Positions 1,540-15,179 of a stretch of 15,212 bases of DNA are shown one piece after another. The DNA lies in contig DGUK01000058.1 of the NCBI GenBank assembly GCA_002394635.1, positions 1 through 15,212 on the forward strand. Direction: 5' to 3'. The notes below the pieces were generated by a model. The model did not search any database. It was not told the origin of the DNA and saw only the letters and a program-made list of their open reading frames with translations. Source of the DNA: Faecalitalea sp. UBA4312 (GTDB taxonomy: Bacteria; Bacillota_I; Bacilli_A; Erysipelotrichales; Erysipelotrichaceae). The translations under genes and the position numbers were made by a program. Numbering within the stretch: the stretch's first letter is position 1; each line of letters begins with the position of its first letter.

Positions 1540-1565
1540 AGGAACATGAAAAGCAGGTGAGACCT

Positions 1566-2828
1566 ATGTTACTGATTCAAAACGGACGAATTGTTGATCC
1601 CGTTACCCAAACCGATGCCATCATGGATTTTCTGATCGATCAGGGAACCATCCTTCAGGTTGGCAAAAAAATAGAAGTGCAGGCAGATCGGATCGATGCG
1701 ACAGGACTGGTGATTGCACCGGGCCTGGTAGATGCCCATGTACATTTCCGTGATCCCGGATTCACCTATAAAGAAGATATTCTTTCTGGCGCTGCTGCTG
1801 CCAAAAAAGGTGGTTTTACCACCGTCATCTGTATGGCTAATACCAAGCCGCCGGTAGATAATTCCGATACATTGCAATATATCCTTGAAAAAGGAAAACA
1901 GACCGGAATTCATTTGTACCAGACAGCAACAGTTACACAAGGCATGGCCGGTCGAAAACTTGTTGATATGGAAGAATTAGCCCGACAAGGAGCGGTCGGT
2001 TTTACCGATGATGGTCTGCCGATCATGGATGAAAATGTGTTGTTAAAAGCTTTGATCAAAGCCAGAAAATTAAATAAACCAATCAGCCTGCACGAAGAGG
2101 ATCCTCTCTTTATCAAGCAGCCTGGTGTCAATCAAGGCGATGTTTCCCACCAATTACGCTATGGCGGAGCCAGCCATACAGCAGAGGATATCATGGTTGC
2201 CAGAGATGCCGTACTGGCCCTGCACACCGGAGCCTCATTATGCATCCAGCATATCAGTTCAGCTAATGCCGTGGAAATCGTAAGGACCTTTAAAAAGCTG
2301 GGTGCCGACATCCATGCCGAAGCGACACCGCACCATTTTACATTAACAGAAGACGCTGTTCTTAAATATGGCACCTATGCCCGCATGAACCCGCCGGTAC
2401 GAACGGAATACGACCGTCAAAAAATCATAGAAGGGATCCAGGACGGCACGATTGATATGATCGTAACTGATCATGCCCCACACAGTACCGAAGAAAAATC
2501 AAGGCCTTTAGAGCAGGCGCCTAGCGGCATCATCGGTTTGGAGACTTCACTGGGTCTGGGGATCCATTCCCTGGTACAGCCAGGCTATATTTCCTTGTTG
2601 AAGCTGATGGAGCTAATGAGCAAAAACCCAATGGAATTCTATCATCTGCCCCCTGTCAGCATTCAACCAGGTCAGCCCGCTGATCTTGTTCTTTTCAACG
2701 AACAGGAAACATGGATCGTGGATCAATTTGCATCCAAAGCTTCAAACAGTCCGTTCACAGGATGGACATTACCAGGGAAGATCCATTATACAATTTGTGC
2801 GGGAAAGATTGTTTACCAAGGAGATTAG
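1566..2828 (+). CDS. pyrC: Dihydroorotase (class I), PyrC
   Basis: Zinc amidohydrolase that cyclises N-carbamoyl-aspartate to dihydroorotate, step three of de novo pyrimidine synthesis, in the cytosol. Family hallmarks in order: DAHVHFRDPG (metal histidines, about residues 58 and 60), the GFTDDG segment with the bridging aspartate expected in this class, SLHEED, HISSANAVEI, EATPHHFTLTED, and TDHAPHSTEEK with the catalytic aspartate. The length of 420 aa is normal for Bacillus-type PyrC. An in-frame GTG at 1557 would add three residues, but it lies inside the AGGTGA Shine-Dalgarno sequence (1555-1560), so I place the start at ATG 1566. No other pyr gene and no PyrR-type attenuator is visible, so this copy stands apart from a pyr operon. 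Dihydropyrimidinase or allantoinase are less likely alternatives. It is cotranscribed with the NUDIX gene. Confidence 0.92.
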   Translation: MLLIQNGRIVDPVTQTDAIMDFLIDQGTILQVGKKIEVQADRIDATGLVIAPGLVDAHVHFRDPGFTYKEDILSGAAAAKKGGFTTVICMANTKPPVDNSDTLQYILEKGKQTGIHLYQTATVTQGMAGRKLVDMEELARQGAVGFTDDGLPIMDENVLLKALIKARKLNKPISLHEEDPLFIKQPGVNQGDVSHQLRYGGASHTAEDIMVARDAVLALHTGASLCIQHISSANAVEIVRTFKKLGADIHAEATPHHFTLTEDAVLKYGTYARMNPPVRTEYDRQKIIEGIQDGTIDMIVTDHAPHSTEEKSRPLEQAPSGIIGLETSLGLGIHSLVQPGYISLLKLMELMSKNPMEFYHLPPVSIQPGQPADLVLFNEQETWIVDQFASKASNSPFTGWTLPGKIHYTICAGKIVYQGD

Positions 2829-2831
2829 ATC

Positions 2832-3386
2832 ATGGAGTTTAAAAAAATAAATAAGATCCAACAAGGAAAATTTATCACACGTTATGATATTGAATATATC
2901 AAAACCGATGGAAAAGAAAAAACCTACGAAATGATCAGCCGGAATCCACATATGCACACACTGGCCGACCTGAATAATCCGGAACCGGATTCTGTGATTC
3001 TGATCCTTACCAACCAGGAAGGCAAGATACTGATCAATAAAGAATATCGTATGGCCATGGGACAGTGGATCTATAACTTTCCGGCCGGTCTGATCGATCC
3101 GGGAGAAACACCGCAGCAGGCTGCTAAGCGAGAGCTGAAAGAAGAAACCGGTCTGGATCTGATCACCATCGATGATATCTTATTTGACAGCTACAGCGCC
3201 GTCGGCTTCAGCAATGAAAAGAACATTGTCATTGTTGGAACAGCCGAAGGGACCTTTCACGAAAGTACGAGCACCTCGGAAGAAATCGAAGCAAAATGGT
3301 ATACTAAAAAGGAAGTACGCCAGCTTTTGAAAAGCCAGTACTTTGCGGCACGTACCCAGGCATACTGTTATTTGTGGGCCAAATAA
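2832..3386 (+). CDS. NUDIX hydrolase, ADP-ribose pyrophosphatase-like
   Basis: Hydrolyses a nucleoside diphosphate linked to another moiety, with ADP-ribose the commonest substrate of this subgroup. The 184-residue protein has a full NUDIX box at residues 86-108: G86, E92, then RELKEETGL with the metal-binding E101, E104 and E105, matching GX5EX7REUXEEXGU. The N-terminal strand region (residues 1-50) and EYRMAMGQWIYNFPAGLI leading into the box resemble NudF/ADPRase proteins. AAGGAG (2818-2823) overlaps the end of pyrC, and only 3 nt separate the pyrC stop from this ATG, so translation is probably coupled. The substrate cannot be fixed from sequence; a nucleotide-sugar or NAD-derivative role is also possible. 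Confidence 0.88.
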   Translation: MEFKKINKIQQGKFITRYDIEYIKTDGKEKTYEMISRNPHMHTLADLNNPEPDSVILILTNQEGKILINKEYRMAMGQWIYNFPAGLIDPGETPQQAAKRELKEETGLDLITIDDILFDSYSAVGFSNEKNIVIVGTAEGTFHESTSTSEEIEAKWYTKKEVRQLLKSQYFAARTQAYCYLWAK

Positions 3387-3423
3387 TAAAACACTTTCTT
3401 TTCCCTTGAATTGACTATAAAAT

Positions 3424-3460
3424 AAAAGAGAATCACAAATGTGATTCTCTTTTCTCATTT
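3424..3460 (+). terminator. Hairpin after the NUDIX gene, containing an operator
   Basis: Arms 3424-3437 and 3440-3453 are perfectly complementary (AAAAGAGAATCACA with TGTGATTCTCTTTT), followed by CTCATTT. It can terminate the pyrC-NUDIX transcript but also sits in the leader of the next gene. The T-tract is interrupted, so read-through is likely. Its core is the operator TCACAAATGTGA. Confidence 0.5.
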
Positions 3461-3464
3461 GTAG
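3433..3464. promoter_or_regulatory. Operator O1 of the SorC-type regulator, with weak second site
   Basis: TCACAAATGTGA at 3433-3444 is identical to the site at 4421-4432. A degenerate copy TCTCATTTGTAG (3453-3464, 9 of 12 matches to the inverted form) follows at 20 bp centre-to-centre and touches the AGGAGG ribosome binding site (3463-3468) of the regulator gene. A TATAAA -10-like box at 3416-3421 lies just before O1 but lacks a good -35. The arrangement suggests autoregulation. Confidence 0.65.
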
Positions 3465-3473
3465 GAGGTTTTT

Positions 3474-4406
3474 ATGGAAGACGATAAACTTTTAGTCCAG
3501 ATTGCCCAGATGTACTACATGGAAAATAAAACCCAAAGCGAGATATCCCGTGCACTGCACATCCATCGCAGTACCATCAGCCGGATGTTGAAACAATGTC
3601 GGGATCAAGGCATCGTAACTATCTCCATCAATCCCCAAAAAGCCGGTACCGATTCTTTAGAAACACGATTGAAAGAAACATACAACCTGAAAGAGGCCAT
3701 TGTGGTCCCTGTCAGTTCCGGATTCAGTGATATGCAGAAAATGGAAGGAATGGGACAAGCTGCCAATCGTTATCTACAATCCATCCTGCAGGATCATATG
3801 ACGATCGGATTTTCCTGGGGAAAGACGACAGCCGCTATCGTTCAGTATTTTAAAGATAATGGAGCCGCCAACATCACATGTGTCCCTTTGATTGGAGGCG
3901 TGGAGGGAAGGATCGAAAGCAGTTATCACGTGAATACTGTTACCTATGAAGCCAGCCGACACCTGAATGGCAGCGCATTGTTGATCGATGCGCCAGCATT
4001 TGCCAGCAGTCCTGAAATCCGGGATATTCTGCTATCCAGTGAATTCAATCAAACGTTGATCAAGTACTGGAAACATACCGATATTGCGTTTGTCGGAATT
4101 GGTTCATTAAAAGCCAGTAACAGCCGGTGGCATTTCTACTATGGTGACAAAATCTTCAAAAACGTCGAACTCAATCATGTCACGGGTGATGTATGTGCCC
4201 ATTATTTTGATAAACAAGGCCAGCATATTCCAAGTTCTTTGGATGATCTTCTAATCAGTATAAGTATTGAAGATCTGAAGAAGATTCCATACCGGATCGG
4301 CGTTGCGGAATCCATCGATAAAGCAGAAGCTATCAAAGCAGCTATGCTCGGAAACTACATCAATGTATTGATCACCACCAGTGAAACAGCAGAACAAATT
4401 GTATAG
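3474..4406 (+). CDS. SorC/DeoR-family sugar-binding transcriptional regulator
   Basis: One-domain-plus-HTH regulator of 310 residues, the usual size for the SorC family (relatives: Bacillus CggR and the Bacillus-type DeoR). Residues about 5-50 form the helix-turn-helix: YYMENKTQSEISRALHI leading into the recognition helix HRSTISRMLK and then QGIVTISI. The rest is the sugar-phosphate-binding domain, with FSWGKTT (about 114-120), VPLIGGVEG, FVGIGSL, GDVCAHYFD near residue 240, and the C-terminal AEAIKAAMLGNYINVLITT. AGGAGG (3463-3468) lies 5 nt before the ATG. Operator-like sites flank both this gene and the next, so it probably represses itself and controls the EIIA-like gene. The effector is unknown; in the family it is typically a phosphorylated sugar. 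Confidence 0.9.
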   Translation: MEDDKLLVQIAQMYYMENKTQSEISRALHIHRSTISRMLKQCRDQGIVTISINPQKAGTDSLETRLKETYNLKEAIVVPVSSGFSDMQKMEGMGQAANRYLQSILQDHMTIGFSWGKTTAAIVQYFKDNGAANITCVPLIGGVEGRIESSYHVNTVTYEASRHLNGSALLIDAPAFASSPEIRDILLSSEFNQTLIKYWKHTDIAFVGIGSLKASNSRWHFYYGDKIFKNVELNHVTGDVCAHYFDKQGQHIPSSLDDLLISISIEDLKKIPYRIGVAESIDKAEAIKAAMLGNYINVLITTSETAEQIV

Positions 4407-4412
4407 ACCATT

Positions 4413-4440
4413 TTAAAAAGTCACAAATGTGACTTTTTAA
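4413..4440 (+). terminator. Hairpin after the SorC-type gene, containing operator O2
   Basis: Arms 4413-4425 and 4428-4440 are complementary: TTAAAAAGTCACA with TGTGACTTTTTAA, then TTTACATTT. The five T in the right arm plus the following TTT resemble a terminator. The core 4421-4432 is the operator sequence. Confidence 0.5.
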
Positions 4441-4453
4441 TTTACATTTGTGA
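4421..4453. promoter_or_regulatory. Operator pair O2/O3 upstream of the EIIA promoter
   Basis: O2 TCACAAATGTGA (4421-4432) and O3 TTACATTTGTGA (4442-4453, 11 of 12 to the inverted consensus) have centres exactly 21 bp apart, two helical turns. O3 abuts the -35 hexamer at 4454. Confidence 0.7.
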
Positions 4454-4482
4454 TTGACAACGACGCATCTCCCCTTTATCAT
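4454..4482 (+). promoter_or_regulatory. Near-consensus promoter of the EIIA-like gene
   Basis: TTGACA (4454-4459, perfect), 17-nt spacer, TATCAT (4477-4482, 5 of 6). Transcription would start near 4489. The promoter lies between two pairs of operator sites. Confidence 0.8.
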
Positions 4483-4489
4483 TAAAGTG

Positions 4490-4522
4490 TAACATATGTT
4501 ATTATTAATATCACATTTGTGA
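4490..4522. promoter_or_regulatory. Operator pair O4/O5 downstream of the EIIA promoter
   Basis: O4 TAACATATGTTA (4490-4501) is a perfect palindrome at the predicted transcription start. O5 TCACATTTGTGA (4511-4522) is the exact inverse of O1/O2. Their centres are again exactly 21 bp apart. Binding here would block initiation or early elongation. Confidence 0.7.
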
Positions 4523-4538
4523 GAAAGGAGGGCATTTA

Positions 4539-5180
4539 ATGAAACAAGCTGTTTCATTAAAACATTCCTTTTTCTCAAGCCGAAAAAGGATGACCGAAGC
4601 TATTCAACATCGTATTTTACAAAATTGTCAGACCCTTACAAACAATTTGAACGATTTGACTAACGACCGTAATATAAACAGTATTACTCACTTTGCCCAG
4701 TTAGATATCGATACAGCGTTTTTATATTGGAAAGAGCCTTTCGTCTCCCCTTTCTCAGGAACGATCATTCCTCTAAGTGAAGTTAGGGATCCAGTATTTT
4801 CATCCGGAGAAGCCGGCGTCGGCTTTGCGGTTATCCCTTCCAGTGGCGAGGTCGTATGCCCGGTCAATGGTATTGTTCGTACGATCTTTCCCATGGGGCA
4901 TACCCTCTTGATCGAAACAGATTTAGGAAAACAGGTTATTGTCCATATGGGCCTGGAAGCAGCTAATAAAGAACACGAAGGATTCCTCATTTTCTGTAAG
5001 GAAGGTGATATTGTCCACTGTAATGACATTTTGGCCGTCTTTGACATTGAACGGTTTAACCAACAAGGAAAATCCACGGTTTCCCCCGTCTTTATCCCGA
5101 ATATTCGTGGGAAGAAGTGCTCTGTTATCCCTTGTGGAAAAGTAAAGGCAGGTGATCCTTTAACCATCTGTATTGTATAA
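4539..5180 (+). CDS. Stand-alone PTS EIIA-Glc-type (type 1) domain protein
   Basis: Phosphocarrier of the sugar phosphotransferase system: it accepts phosphate from HPr and passes it to an EIIB. Residues about 68-205 match the Crr/IIA-Glc fold: SPFSGTIIPLSEV, DPVFSSGEAGVGFAVIP, SSGEVVCPVNGIV, then FPMGHTLLIET with H121 and VIVHMGLEAA with H136. The 15-residue spacing equals that of E. coli H75 and H90, and H136 corresponds to the phosphorylated one. EGFLIFCKEGDIV and the C-terminal KVKAGDPL follow. No EIIB or EIIC domain is present. Residues 1-65 form an unrecognised extension, basic at first, making the protein (213 aa) longer than the usual 150-170. AAAGGAGGG (4524-4532) fixes the ATG. It lies downstream of a SorC-type regulator and is surrounded by its likely operators. 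Confidence 0.88.
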   Translation: MKQAVSLKHSFFSSRKRMTEAIQHRILQNCQTLTNNLNDLTNDRNINSITHFAQLDIDTAFLYWKEPFVSPFSGTIIPLSEVRDPVFSSGEAGVGFAVIPSSGEVVCPVNGIVRTIFPMGHTLLIETDLGKQVIVHMGLEAANKEHEGFLIFCKEGDIVHCNDILAVFDIERFNQQGKSTVSPVFIPNIRGKKCSVIPCGKVKAGDPLTICIV

Positions 5181-5187
5181 TTCTCTC

Positions 5188-5213
5188 AAAAAAAGCGTCA
5201 ATGCCGTTTTTTT
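5188..5213. terminator. Weak bidirectional terminator between converging genes
   Basis: Seven A (5188-5194) face seven T (5207-5213), with CG/CG pairs inside (5196-5197 with 5205-5206) and one bulged G. Either strand therefore ends in a run of seven T. The stem is weak, but position between two convergent stops supports the role. Confidence 0.5.
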
Positions 5214-5955
5214 ATTTCAATCGATCGATCGCCTGGGCCATATCTTCCACCACATGATCGGCATAAGCTTTTACCGGATCCGGTGACCAAGTAAAGGTAA
5301 ACGCAATATCCGCTTTTTCCAATAAAGGAATATCATTATAAAAGTCTCCGATCCCAGCCATCACATCAATTTGCATCTTCTCCTTATATATCTGCAGAGC
5401 ATTGCCCTTGGAACATCCCTTGGCTACAATATCTACAAATCGGACATTTCGATAGGCGATGATCTCCTCTCCAAAGTATGCATTGGTCAGGTCCGTGATG
5501 CGCTGGGCATCCTCTTTGGAAAAACAGCCGAAAGATACACCTTGAAACGGCACATTCGGCAGGTCACTGACGGATGGCACATACTTGGACAGAAAGGAGA
5601 GATGACTGCTCTTCTGCATTTCATATACATCAAAACCCGTTCGGATATACATATTCGCCTGTCCATAGAAAGAGTCGTACAAAGCCTGGATCGTGGAGCG
5701 TTTCATTGCCTTCTCATAGATCAAACGATGGTCTTTGTCATAGATAGCAGCCCCACTGACAACGATGAAAAAATCGCAACAGATCCGATCGGTCAATGGA
5801 TACAACGTGCTCGGCAGATCTCTTCCAGTACAGATGCCGAACTGATTTCCCTGCTTCTGAAACTGTGCAATAGCTTGAATATCTTGTTCTTTGAAGTGTA
5901 CTTCATCATGCCCGAAGTACAAGGTGCCGTCAAAATCACTTGCCAACGCTATCAT
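5212..5955 (-). CDS. Cof-type HAD-superfamily phosphatase, 247 aa
   Basis: Mg-dependent phosphohydrolase of the HAD subclass IIB (Cof/YidA-like), acting on small phosphorylated metabolites in the cytosol. Motif I is DFDGTL with nucleophile D7 and acid/base D9; motif II is in the IVVSGAAIYD segment (about 64-73); the motif III lysine is K183 in CSKGNAL; motif IV is GDFYNDIPLLEKA with D204 and D208. The cap domain lies between about residues 80 and 180. I start at ATG 5955 because GGAGG (5963-5967) sits 7 nt upstream; a longer frame from 6006 would overlap the ABC gene and has no Shine-Dalgarno. It is the last gene of the exporter operon, 28 nt after it. The substrate is unknown. Confidence 0.88.
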   Translation of the reverse strand: MIALASDFDGTLYFGHDEVHFKEQDIQAIAQFQKQGNQFGICTGRDLPSTLYPLTDRICCDFFIVVSGAAIYDKDHRLIYEKAMKRSTIQALYDSFYGQANMYIRTGFDVYEMQKSSHLSFLSKYVPSVSDLPNVPFQGVSFGCFSKEDAQRITDLTNAYFGEEIIAYRNVRFVDIVAKGCSKGNALQIYKEKMQIDVMAGIGDFYNDIPLLEKADIAFTFTWSPDPVKAYADHVVEDMAQAIDRLK

Positions 5956-11869: not shown

Positions 11870-12087
11870 TCAAGAAATGCCGGATATCCTTTATGACAAT
11901 CATCCCAAAGAATTTATGATGTATATGTTTTTATTTCCTACTTAGAGAAGAATTGTTCGAAATTCATGATGTTATCCTTATGATGCTCAAAAAAGTTAAA
12001 AACACATTTAAATTATGTACCTATCGCAAATGGAGGCAAAACCTGTAATAATAAAGTTAGGATATTTATCTAATGGAGGATCATACT
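11870..12087 (+). other. Intergenic stretch before the oxidoreductase gene
   Basis: About 218 bases, AT-rich, without a supportable gene. A 22-codon frame (11877-11945) has no ribosome binding site. No clear intrinsic terminator for the upstream small gene and no convincing sigma-A promoter for the oxidoreductase were found, although several AT-rich -10-like blocks occur (for example around 12009-12015 and 12046-12053). GGAGG at 12075-12079 is the ribosome binding site of the next gene. Confidence 0.4.
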
Positions 12088-14016
12088 ATGACACAAAAAC
12101 TCTTTGAACGAGGTTCCATTGGTAACCTTGAATTAAAAAATCGTGTAGTTATGCCGGCGATGGGATGTTCTTTAGCCAGTGAAACCGGCATCGCCTCAGC
12201 CGAGATGATCCGGTATTATCAGGAACGCGCAAAAGGCGGTTGTGCACTGATCATTACCGAAATCACCCGTGTAGATGATGAAACCGGTATTGGTACCCCG
12301 TGCCAGTTATCAGTGACAAAGAAAGAAAACATTCCAAGTCTTGTACGATTAGCCGAGGCAGTTCATGCCTATGATTCAAAGGTCTTTGTTCAGCTGCACC
12401 ATCCGGGCAACCAGACACCGGCTCGCCTTTTAAATGGCCTACAGCCGGTATCAGCCAGTGATGTCACATGCTCAACGATCGGAGACAAGCCTCGCCCTTT
12501 AACGACAGAAGAAGTGGAAGCTCTGGTTAAAAAATTTGTAACAGGAGCTGCCTATTGCCAGATTGCCGGCATTGATGGAGTGGAGATCCATGCTGCCCAT
12601 GGCTATCTGGTGAATCAATTTATGTCTCCTCATACCAATAAACGGACTGATAAATATGGTGGAGATTTTAAGGGACGCATGCGCTTTGTGACCGAAATCA
12701 TAAAGGGGATCCAAACGGTGTGTGGACCAAACTATCCAATTTCTGTTCGTATCAACGGAGATGATTTCATCGAAGATGGTATCAAACTGGAAGAAGCCGT
12801 ACAGATGGCTGTCTATCTTGAAAAATTAGGAATTCAGGTTCTGAATGTCAGCTGTGGTACGTATGAATCCGGTTATACGATCATTGAACCCCAAGGTATG
12901 CCGGAAGCCTGGAAGCAGCACTTAGCCAAAACGATCAAAGCCCATATCAACATTCCGGTCATTGCCACCAACAATTTAAAACACCCGGCTGTTGCCGAGA
13001 AGCTTTTAGAAGAAGGTGTGTGTGACTATGTTGGGATTGCCCGTGGTCAGCTGGCAGATCCGCAATGGGCCAATAAGGCCAAAAACGGACAGGACAAACG
13101 GATCCGCAAATGTTTAAGCTGCATGGAATGCTTCCGCGTACTAAATGCCCTGCGCCCGTTGGAATGTACGATCAACCCGGTATTGGGAAGAGAACTGCAT
13201 TTCAATGATGAAACATTAAAGAAGAACGGAAACGGACAATCCGTAGCTGTCATCGGTGGAGGACCGGCCGGTATGCAGGCAGCAATTGTTCTGGCAAAAC
13301 GCGGGTTCAAATCAGTGCTTTTTGAAAAAGCAGATCGATTAGGCGGCAGCGCTTTGTTGGCTGCTGTTCCTCCGCATAAGGAAATGATGAGCGAGTTCAT
13401 CGAAACCATGATTGAGGAATGCAAAGAATACGGTGTAGAGATCCGCTTGGATACACAAGCTACAGCGGAAGATGTCAAAGCCATCGATCCGGTAGGCATC
13501 TTTATGGCTACGGGTGGCAATCCAATCATTCCAAATCTTCCGGGTATTGAACATGCTGTTACCAGTACCGACGTATTAACGGGAAAAGCAGTCTATAAGG
13601 ATAAGAATATTATTGTAATCGGCGGCGGTGTTACCGGGCTGGAAACCGCTGAAACGATCTGTGCCGACAACGATGTAACCATAGTGGAAATGATGAAAGA
13701 TGTCGGTACAACCCTGTATGCCAGTGCCAAAGCTCTGTTAATGAAACGACTGACAGACCAAGGGACAAAAGTCATGACCAGTACAACATTAAAATCTTTG
13801 CAAAGTGATTCTATTACCGTGACGGATGCAGAAGGCAAGGAAAGCACAATTCCTTGTGATGCCGTTGTTCTGGCAATGGGTGTACACAGTGATAAAAGCC
13901 TTCGCAAAGAGCTGGAACAAGTCTCTGATCGCGTTATTCTGATTGGTGACTGTGATAAGCCGGGACAGATTCGCGAAGCTCTGCATGCTGCGTACGACAA
14001 AGCTTTTGTTTTCTAG
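12088..14016 (+). CDS. Old-yellow-enzyme / 2,4-dienoyl-CoA reductase-like flavo-Fe-S oxidoreductase
   Basis: NAD(P)H-dependent reductase of activated C=C bonds, 642 aa, related to FadH, clostridial enoate reductases and BaiCD/BaiH. Domain 1 (1-340) is the FMN TIM barrel: GNLELKNRVVMPAM, VQLHHPGNQ, and VEIHAAHGYLVNQFMSP with H168, H171 and Y173, then RTDKYGG. A 4Fe-4S cluster follows: C342, C345, C348, C360 in CLSCMECF...ECTINP. Domain 2 binds FAD (VAVIGGGPAGMQAA, about 387-400) and NAD(P)H (IIVIGGGVTGLETAE, about 510), ending in LIGDCDKPGQIREALHAAYD. I use ATG 12088: the in-frame ATG at 12073 lies across the GGAGG (12075-12079). It seems monocistronic with a strong terminator. The substrate (enoyl-CoA, cinnamate-like acid, 3-oxo-delta4 steroid) cannot be fixed from sequence. 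Confidence 0.9.
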   Translation: MTQKLFERGSIGNLELKNRVVMPAMGCSLASETGIASAEMIRYYQERAKGGCALIITEITRVDDETGIGTPCQLSVTKKENIPSLVRLAEAVHAYDSKVFVQLHHPGNQTPARLLNGLQPVSASDVTCSTIGDKPRPLTTEEVEALVKKFVTGAAYCQIAGIDGVEIHAAHGYLVNQFMSPHTNKRTDKYGGDFKGRMRFVTEIIKGIQTVCGPNYPISVRINGDDFIEDGIKLEEAVQMAVYLEKLGIQVLNVSCGTYESGYTIIEPQGMPEAWKQHLAKTIKAHINIPVIATNNLKHPAVAEKLLEEGVCDYVGIARGQLADPQWANKAKNGQDKRIRKCLSCMECFRVLNALRPLECTINPVLGRELHFNDETLKKNGNGQSVAVIGGGPAGMQAAIVLAKRGFKSVLFEKADRLGGSALLAAVPPHKEMMSEFIETMIEECKEYGVEIRLDTQATAEDVKAIDPVGIFMATGGNPIIPNLPGIEHAVTSTDVLTGKAVYKDKNIIVIGGGVTGLETAETICADNDVTIVEMMKDVGTTLYASAKALLMKRLTDQGTKVMTSTTLKSLQSDSITVTDAEGKESTIPCDAVVLAMGVHSDKSLRKELEQVSDRVILIGDCDKPGQIREALHAAYDKAFVF

Positions 14017-14026
14017 AATCAAATAG

Positions 14027-14064
14027 AATAAACCTTCAGGAAGCCCACCTGAAGGTTTATTTAT
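14027..14064 (+). terminator. Strong terminator after the oxidoreductase
   Basis: A 14-bp perfect stem (14027-14040 with 14048-14061; AATAAACCTTCAGG/CCTGAAGGTTTATT), 7-nt loop, then TATT. It should separate this gene from the bile salt hydrolase. Confidence 0.9.
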
Positions 14065-14149
14065 TCTGACGATGGATAGTCAAGAGCTGATCATTCCCAA
14101 ATCTGCCATGAACCTTTAACGCCACTTGAACCAATCATAACATCCAATG

Positions 14150-14178
14150 GCTTCTTAGAGGCACTTTTAGGGTATACT
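14150..14178 (+). promoter_or_regulatory. Probable promoter of the bile salt hydrolase gene
   Basis: TATACT (14173-14178, 5 of 6) lies 27 nt before the ATG. The region 17 nt upstream (GCTTCT, 14150-14155) is a poor -35, so this promoter may be weak or need an activator. Confidence 0.4.
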
Positions 14179-14204
14179 AAAGGTAATGAATGGAGGTTGG
14201 TTCT

Positions 14205-15179
14205 ATGTGTACTGCAGCAACATATCAAACAAAAGACTTTTATTTTGGCAGAACATTCGATTACGGATCTTCTTACGGAGAAGAAGTAGTAATCACACCA
14301 AGAAAGTATATATTTAACTTCAGAAAAGAGGGCGTTCTGAGCAATCATTATGCGATGATCGGAACTGCCTATGTCGCAAATGAATATCCTCTTTATTATG
14401 AAGCTGTCAACGAAAAGGGACTGGCAATGGCCGGGTTGAACTTTGCCGGTAATGCTGATTATAAAGAAGAATGTGAAGAGAAAACGAATATTGCTCCGTT
14501 TGAATTGATTCCATGGATCCTTGGTCAATGTCAAACAGTAAAAGAAGCTAGAATACAGTTAGAGAAAATGAATCTGGTTAATATATCTTTCAGCGATCAA
14601 CTGCCTTTAACACCTTTACATTGGCTCATTGCCGACAAAAACGAAGCTATAACTGTGGAATCTGTCAAAGAAGGCTTATTTATTTATGAGAATCCGGTTG
14701 GTGTCTTGACCAATAATCCCACCTTTGACAAACAGTTGTTTCATCTGAACAACTACCGCTATCTTCAAACCACAACACCGGATAACACCTTTGGAAAAGA
14801 TCTATCCCTGGATGTTTATAGTCTGGGAATGGGAGGCATGGGCCTGCCAGGTGATCTATCTTCACAATCCCGCTTTGTACGAGCTTCTTTTGCGAAATTA
14901 AATTCTTCATCGGACAATGACGAATTATCCAGTGTCAGTCAATTTTTTCATATCCTGGACTATGTATCGCAACCACGTGGATTGTGCAGTCTGGGAAACG
15001 GGCAATATGAAATAACCATTTATGCATCTTGTTACAATACCGATGCCGGCATTCAGTATTATACTTGTTATGACAATCATCAAATCACAAAGGTTGATAT
15101 GCATAAAGAAAATTTAGATGAAAGAAACCTGGTACGTTATCCACTCATTACTAAAGAACAAATCAACGCACAAAACTGA
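14205..15179 (+). CDS. bsh: Bile salt hydrolase (choloylglycine hydrolase), Ntn family
   Basis: Hydrolyses the amide bond of glycine- or taurine-conjugated bile acids; a cytosolic enzyme of intestinal bacteria. The protein of 324 aa matches family length. It starts MCTAATYQTKDFYFGRTFDY, so removal of Met exposes catalytic C2. Other conserved residues: R16 and D19, N79 in GLNFAG, N171 in LTNNPTFD, and R223 in SSQSRFVR. GMGGMGLPGD is a family signature. I choose ATG 14205 because Cys must be residue 2 and GGAGG (14192-14196) lies 8 nt upstream; the in-frame ATG at 14190 would block the active site. Penicillin V acylase is the main alternative within this family, but the N-terminus and LPGDLSSQSRF segment favour a bile salt hydrolase. 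It lies alone, downstream of the oxidoreductase and its terminator. Confidence 0.92.
   Translation: MCTAATYQTKDFYFGRTFDYGSSYGEEVVITPRKYIFNFRKEGVLSNHYAMIGTAYVANEYPLYYEAVNEKGLAMAGLNFAGNADYKEECEEKTNIAPFELIPWILGQCQTVKEARIQLEKMNLVNISFSDQLPLTPLHWLIADKNEAITVESVKEGLFIYENPVGVLTNNPTFDKQLFHLNNYRYLQTTTPDNTFGKDLSLDVYSLGMGGMGLPGDLSSQSRFVRASFAKLNSSSDNDELSSVSQFFHILDYVSQPRGLCSLGNGQYEITIYASCYNTDAGIQYYTCYDNHQITKVDMHKENLDERNLVRYPLITKEQINAQN

Follow-up and report, generated by a model that had tools for sequence, protein, structure and literature searches.

Paired palindromes flanking the promoter of a solitary EIIA gene are probable operators of a SorC-family regulator in Faecalitalea sp. UBA4312

In a 15,212-nucleotide stretch of the genome of Faecalitalea sp. 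UBA4312 (hereafter the window; contig 109 of a 1.78-Mb draft that is 82% complete), five 12-bp palindromes surround a gene for a SorC-family regulator (P0001, starting at 3474), which is followed by the gene for a solitary glucose-family EIIA protein (P0002). One palindrome precedes the regulator gene, and the other four form two pairs, one on either side of the EIIA promoter. These palindromes are best explained as operators of P0001 itself, and we put the probability of this reading, taken as a whole with its pairs, its control of the two genes, and its descent from the control region of a sorbose operon, at roughly 80%. The locus is likely a conserved module of regulator and operators in which the target gene has changed and in which operators have come to overlap terminator-like hairpins.

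Results and Discussion

Five exact palindromes cluster within 1.1 kb

The five sites lie exactly where the original prediction had placed them and share the form T-N-ACA-NN-TGT-N-A (Table 1). Within both pairs the palindrome centers are 21 bp apart, and the TTGACA-17-TATCAT promoter proposed to lie between the pairs is present there. From the center of one pair to the center of the other the distance is 69 bp (~6.6 helical turns). Positions relative to the promoter are counted from a presumed EIIA transcription start at G4489.

Table 1. Coordinates of genes, promoter, hairpins, and putative operators in the window
Feature	Position	Strand	Evidence or remarks
Dihydroorotase (pyrC)	1557-2828		
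NUDIX hydrolase	2832-3386		After dihydroorotase gene
Hairpin, 13-bp stem, loop 4	3424-3453	+	Terminator scan; apex is operator 1; 3424-3455 folds at -15.9 kcal/mol
Putative operator 1 (probably autoregulatory), TCACAAATGTGA	3433-3444	+	Apex of 3424-3453 hairpin
SorC/DeoR-type regulator P0001, 310 aa	3474-4406	+	Pfam PF04198 2.7e-69; tree placement; structure match 2w48
Hairpin, 12-bp stem, loop 4	4413-4440	+	Apex is operator 2; -12.1 kcal/mol
Putative operator 2, distal pair, TCACAAATGTGA	4421-4432	+	Center 4426.5, about -62.5
Putative operator 3, distal pair, TTACATTTGTGA	4442-4453		Abuts -35 box; center 4447.5, about -41.5
Promoter TTGACA-17-TATCAT	4454-4482	+	11/12 matches; -35 4454-4459, -10 4477-4482, 17-nt spacer
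Putative operator 4, proximal pair, TAACATATGTTA	4490-4501		At start site; center 4495.5, +6.5
Putative operator 5, proximal pair, TCACAAATGTGA	4511-4522	-	Center 4516.5, +27.5; just before ribosome-binding site
Solitary glucose-family EIIA P0002	4539-5180	+	PF00358 1.3e-33

Of the 32 exact matches to the degenerate palindrome in the whole genome, five fall here within 1.1 kb; with the other 27 as background, the Poisson probability of at least five in 1090 bp is ~1e-11. A first-order Markov model gives an expectation of 0.3 exact palindromes per window, with a maximum of three in 300 runs. When one mismatch is allowed, the nine matches in the window are unremarkable against the 7.5 expected, and the motif shows no genome-wide enrichment (32 occurrences versus 57 for a backwards control), so the signal lies in the exactness and the clustering of the sites. 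Two mismatch-free motifs exactly 21 bp apart are found genome-wide only at these two places. A further copy matching at nine of 12 positions, which had been suggested at 3453, was dropped because it scores -2.4 with the motif matrix, versus 12.1-19.6 for the five sites.

Genome context was checked for nine of the 27 other palindromes. Six lie inside open reading frames and three between genes (two on contig 101 and one on contig 88), and none of the nine forms an exact 21-bp pair. A genome-wide regulon was rejected, since such pairs exist only at this locus. On contig 101, the palindrome TTACAATTGTAA (L155:1922) lies in a divergent intergenic region upstream of a SorC paralog (L155:2137-3105), and is possibly that paralog's own operator.

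The motif tracks the clade of the regulator

P0001 matches PF04198 with 233.7 bits over residues 58-310 and has helix-turn-helix-type matches within residues 12-54. It is a SorC-family protein of the DeoR-type subfamily, with a short N-terminal helix-turn-helix and a C-terminal sugar-phosphate-binding domain. Its best match among solved structures, 2w48, is presumably the SorC protein of K. pneumoniae. Among 315 genomes of the order, only one other has a match to the regulator at 1e-60 or better.

We compared 80 loci that encode related regulators and placed them in a tree of 76 rows, from which near-duplicate or incomplete entries (L069, L071, L072, L074, L086, L102, L104, L106, and L109) and one paralog from the same genome were left out. 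The window regulator groups with those of Catenisphaera (L079) and Absicoccus (L083) with support of 100/97, and this set sits inside a clade of Enterococcus, Tetragenococcus, Vagococcus, Streptococcus, and Sebaldella regulators. The position of Absicoccus porci (L083) as sister of the window within the set is weak (89/42). With L069, L071, L072, L074, and L086 placed by identity, the clade comprises 32 loci, and in 26 of them the fetched stretch carries motifs of sorbose-type operons (a short-chain dehydrogenase or sorbose-type subunits of the phosphotransferase system, PTS). The dehydrogenases of L066 and L079, the two loci tested, score above the cut-off for sorbitol-6-phosphate dehydrogenase, and the PTS genes of L079 match PF03610 and PF03830, the make-up of a sorbose-type operon. 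By sequence comparison, P0001 is orthologous to regulators most of which are encoded beside operons of this kind, with sorbitol-6-phosphate dehydrogenase and a mannose-family PTS.

The exact motif is present in 29 of the 32 clade loci (50 sites; none for the backwards control), compared with 4 of the 48 loci outside the clade (4 sites; 3 for the control). An exact motif stands no more than 250 bp ahead of the regulator match in 21 of the 80 loci, 19 of them among the 32 of the clade, where its distance from the first matched codon is 36-140 bp. In many clade loci the motif also precedes the next operon, and in L065 and L068 the region upstream of the regulator precedes a divergent operon as well. 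The arrangement in relatives is thus a site upstream of the regulator gene and/or a pair at the start site of the operon, frequently joined by another pair upstream of the -35 box. The fetched Yersinia sorC loci did not yield the motif. A search of orthologous loci had been set beforehand as the test on which the original prediction might fail, and the sites proved to be conserved. This comparison supports the assignment of the sites to the SorC regulator and makes autoregulation through the 3433 site, which had also been proposed, probable. The description of the array as surrounding a SorC regulator and an EIIA-like gene holds for this genome; the target of most orthologs is a sorbose-type operon and not an EIIA gene.

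Palindromes with TCACA/TGTGA arms resemble the sites of several regulators, and five further PF04198 proteins are encoded in the genome, so the sites could in principle be operators of another regulator, such as one of these five SorC paralogs or a CRP/FNR-type protein. We consider this highly improbable, given that the presence of the motif follows the P0001 clade in the proportions just described, that the motif adjoins the P0001 gene, and that the genome holds no other exact 21-bp pairs.

Pair spacing and promoter geometry

Spacing in relatives was measured independently with a leave-one-out motif matrix, in which a partner site of more than 5 bits was found at +20 for 11 of 49 anchors and at -20 for 11 of 49, versus 0.04% of control positions (two exact sites that pair with each other are counted once from each side, and one L079 site inside a coding region was excluded). 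Two half-sites about two helical turns apart, as in the SorC family, are therefore seen both in the window (21 bp) and in relatives (+/-20). The suggestion that paired sites suit a tetramer agrees with this comparison, and pairing at about two turns recurs in relatives, but 21 bp is not the rule: the spacing is usually 20 in relatives, 22 in Catenisphaera, and 21 in the window.

Promoter scans covered 18 relatives for the position of the -35 box and 20 for the distal spacing, chosen because the downstream promoter was visible in the fetched stretch. In nine loci (L066, L067, L069-L072, L076, L099, and L122) the anchor was placed 20 bp before an exact site after inspection of the sequence, so that their proximal spacing of 20 is not an independent measure. 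Among 19 promoters, with the window included, the distance from TTGAC to the proximal pair downstream is 34-37 bp in 17 and 41 bp in the other two. The best distal spacing equals the proximal spacing in 13 of 21 promoters (21/21 in the window, 22/22 in Catenisphaera, and 20/20 in eleven), with a binomial probability of 3e-11 at a chance of 1/16 if relatedness is ignored. The distal pair starts 65-69 bp before the proximal site in the window, in L066, and in three streptococci (L084, L085, and L091); in eleven others it starts 75-78 bp before, and in two 82 bp before, which is about one helical turn further. Because spacing varies between lineages yet tends to match within a promoter, these data suggest co-evolution of tetramer geometry with DNA spacing. 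They also offer a testable DNA code for the sorbose branch of SorC regulators, consisting of a 12-bp palindrome in two-turn pairs at the start site and often upstream of the -35 box.

Proposed binding and control at the EIIA promoter

As described in PMC11229326, a DeoR or CggR tetramer occupies two half-operators that face the same side of the DNA and is joined through its effector-binding domains, and by our reading the operator sequences quoted there place the half-operators ~20 bp apart for CggR and ~22 bp apart for DeoR. By this precedent, each 21-bp pair is probably one complete operator for a tetramer of the regulator, a dimer of dimers with one palindrome for each DNA-binding dimer. 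The original prediction further raised the possibility of looping between the two pairs. Looping, through higher oligomers, is unlikely, because under the DeoR/CggR model one tetramer already spends its four DNA-binding domains on one pair and because the pair centers are separated by ~6.6 helical turns here, with pair starts 65-82 bp apart in relatives.

The proximal pair should repress, because it overlaps the start site, and would block EIIA transcription in the effector-free state. The distal pair may activate, because it touches the -35 box, where activators sit, and from these positions (-41.5/-62.5) the regulator may stimulate transcription when a sugar phosphate is bound; the 3433 site would provide autoregulation. 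SorC itself is described in PMC12817954 (citing Wohrl et al. 1990) as an activator in the presence of L-sorbose and a repressor in its absence. Pure repression, with both pairs acting as repressor operators that flank the promoter and the distal pair having no activating role, is a serious possibility, if somewhat short of an even chance: DeoR and CggR are described as repressors (PMC11229326), and the distal pair varies in position among relatives, its start falling between -65 and -82 as counted from the proximal pair. The dual behavior reported for SorC argues in the other direction, as does the distal pair itself, which abuts the -35 box in the window and in many relatives is set back by roughly one helical turn. 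A shift of about one helical turn is tolerated for activators. We regard dual control by P0001 as somewhat more likely than pure repression.

Two putative operators lie within terminator-like hairpins

A feature overlooked in the original prediction is that the sites at 3433 and 4421 are the cores of longer perfect palindromes, which run on for 9 and 8 bp per side, respectively, with differing arm sequences, and which form terminator-like hairpins. Both hairpins are followed by T-rich tails and stand behind the end of a gene. The extension is 0 bp at the other three window sites and 0-2 bp at the 50 sites of relatives, one of which lies inside a coding region in L079 (55 sites compared in all). 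Because the arms differ in sequence yet pair perfectly, we argue for a structural role. The first hairpin is a candidate both for the terminator of the pyrC-NUDIX genes that precede it and for a leader of the regulator gene; the second is the strongest terminator-like structure in the interval from the regulator gene to the EIIA promoter. In the same interval of 16 relatives, the scan found a separate hairpin in nine and none in six, and in L085 the best terminator-like match is formed by the two distal operator sites. Positions 2800-5400 hold five terminator-like sites, versus 2.4 (standard deviation 1.4) in shuffles, and two of the five are the 3424-3453 hairpin on either strand.

Stems of 12-13 bp, T-rich tails, and locations behind the ends of preceding genes would all be expected if the 3433 and 4421 repeats were plain intrinsic terminators with an incidental likeness to the operator core. 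Such a coincidence is very unlikely, because the same core occurs upstream of the regulator genes and operons of relatives with next to no extension, because the three remaining window sites are unextended as well, and because each stem holds only 3-4 G-C pairs. Since the core is conserved elsewhere without hairpins, the sites were probably operators before they acquired hairpins in this lineage, so that operators 1 and 2 would have been drawn into structures that close off the preceding genes. When 4405-4460 is folded as RNA, operators 2 and 3 can also pair with each other, and the longer hairpin so formed (-14.7 kcal/mol) is in competition with the terminator-like one.

The EIIA target and its possible clients

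P0002 matches PF00358 with 115.8 bits over a cut-off of 27.2, and its residues H121 and H136 align with histidines of 1ax3, the solved glucose permease IIA domain that it matches best. The domain and the two active-site histidines identify it as a glucose-family EIIA; its score against TIGR00830 (96.4) falls just below the cut-off of 97.5. It is the only PF00358 match found in the genome, and it carries a 64-residue N-terminal extension (4539-4730). Among 94 candidates for like EIIAs elsewhere, two passed, namely the query's own cluster and one weak match; across 195 genomes of the family, the best other EIIA match was 42% identical over residues 53-210, and among the matches listed none apart from P0002 itself reached residues 1-31.

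The probable target of P0001, which lies next to it, is this EIIA-Glc gene and not the sorbitol-6-phosphate dehydrogenase and mannose-family PTS that a sorbose regulator controls. An orthologous sorbose PTS was not found in the assembly, which encodes three PF03609 proteins, the best of them 40% identical to the Catenisphaera EIIC; that protein is 82% identical to an Enterococcus EIIC. The module would descend from a sorbose-operon control region, with the solitary EIIA-Glc protein as its target in this lineage.

EIIA would most likely phosphorylate EIIBC proteins that have no EIIA of their own. The sole PF00367 match in the genome is the EIIB of a MurP-like EIIBC without EIIA, whose gene lies together with genes for MurQ and MupG on contig 96 (L153:4267-7672). 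This is an N-acetylmuramic acid recovery cluster whose transporter lacks EIIA, and its MurP-like EIIBC is likely served by P0002. An RpiR-like regulator, judged by eye, adjoins the cluster. A second EIIC protein (contig 15) matches a beta-glucoside model over its EIIB-EIIC part only and might likewise be served by P0002.

Several observations weigh against our interpretation. Exact sites were not found in L080, L083, or L086 of the clade (L086 being a short, truncated stretch), and motif-free L083, whose fetched stretch holds no sorbose operon motifs either, groups in the tree with the window and L079. Distal and proximal spacings are unequal in 8 of the 21 promoters: seven belong to an Enterococcus avium-like group in which one distal site is weak (L067, L069-L072, L076, and L099), and in the eighth, L092 (Sebaldella), no distal pair rises above shuffles. 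Neither P0001 nor P0002 passes a specific equivalog cut-off in NCBIfam. The MurP-like EIIBC scores 324 against a MurP cut-off of 516, and no exact operator site was found in the fetched stretch around its gene. At 82% completeness, the assembly could lack a sorbose operon or a second EIIA that the organism possesses.

A broader and more speculative account, which we regard as rather doubtful, is that rewiring has placed the sole EIIA-Glc of the cell under a sorbose regulator and its complete four-palindrome control region, so that this regulator licenses other PTS uptake, for example of cell-wall amino sugars, and that two of its operators are dual elements, serving as regulator sites in DNA and as terminator hairpins in RNA. 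If so, occupancy by the regulator and termination at the dual elements could influence each other.

Other features of the window

A convergent HAD hydrolase gene follows the EIIA gene, and no Rfam family was found in the window at gathering thresholds. At 12073-15179, a gene for a BaiCD-like Fe-S flavoenzyme (NF041087, 2.8e-143, below cut-off) immediately precedes one for a choloylglycine (bile salt) hydrolase, which scores above the cut-off of NF038245; the two may form a bile-acid gene pair.

Comparison with known systems

We found no earlier description of this operator in the literature on SorC, sorbose operons, and operator-terminator overlap, a search that left subscription papers outside, and the string TCACAAATGTGA appeared only in two papers whose titles look unrelated. 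The closest systems are the SorC/SorR regulators of L-sorbose operons, among them K. pneumoniae SorC; the Enterococcus, Streptococcus, and Catenisphaera loci share with the window the orthologous regulator, the palindromic motif, the geometry of pairs and promoter, and, in many loci, a site before the regulator's own gene. The window differs in that the target is a solitary EIIA-Glc gene, the spacing is 21 rather than 20, two operators lie inside hairpins, and the draft genome yielded no orthologous sorbose PTS.

In E. coli, EIIA-Glc (Crr) supplies MurP in trans. The window genome likewise combines a stand-alone EIIA-Glc that has both histidines with a MurP-like EIIBC that lacks EIIA; unlike Crr, P0002 has the 64-residue extension and is probably controlled by a SorC-type regulator, and its supply of MurP is our inference. 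The DeoR operator of dra-nupC-pdp and the CggR operator of gapA in B. subtilis also consist of two half-operators ~20-22 bp apart bound by a tetramer (PMC11229326), but the motif sequence is different and each has one full operator, whereas the window has two that flank the promoter. Paired SorC-family operators are thus a known arrangement, and what is unusual here is the target gene, the overlap of operators with hairpins, and the lineage-specific spacing.
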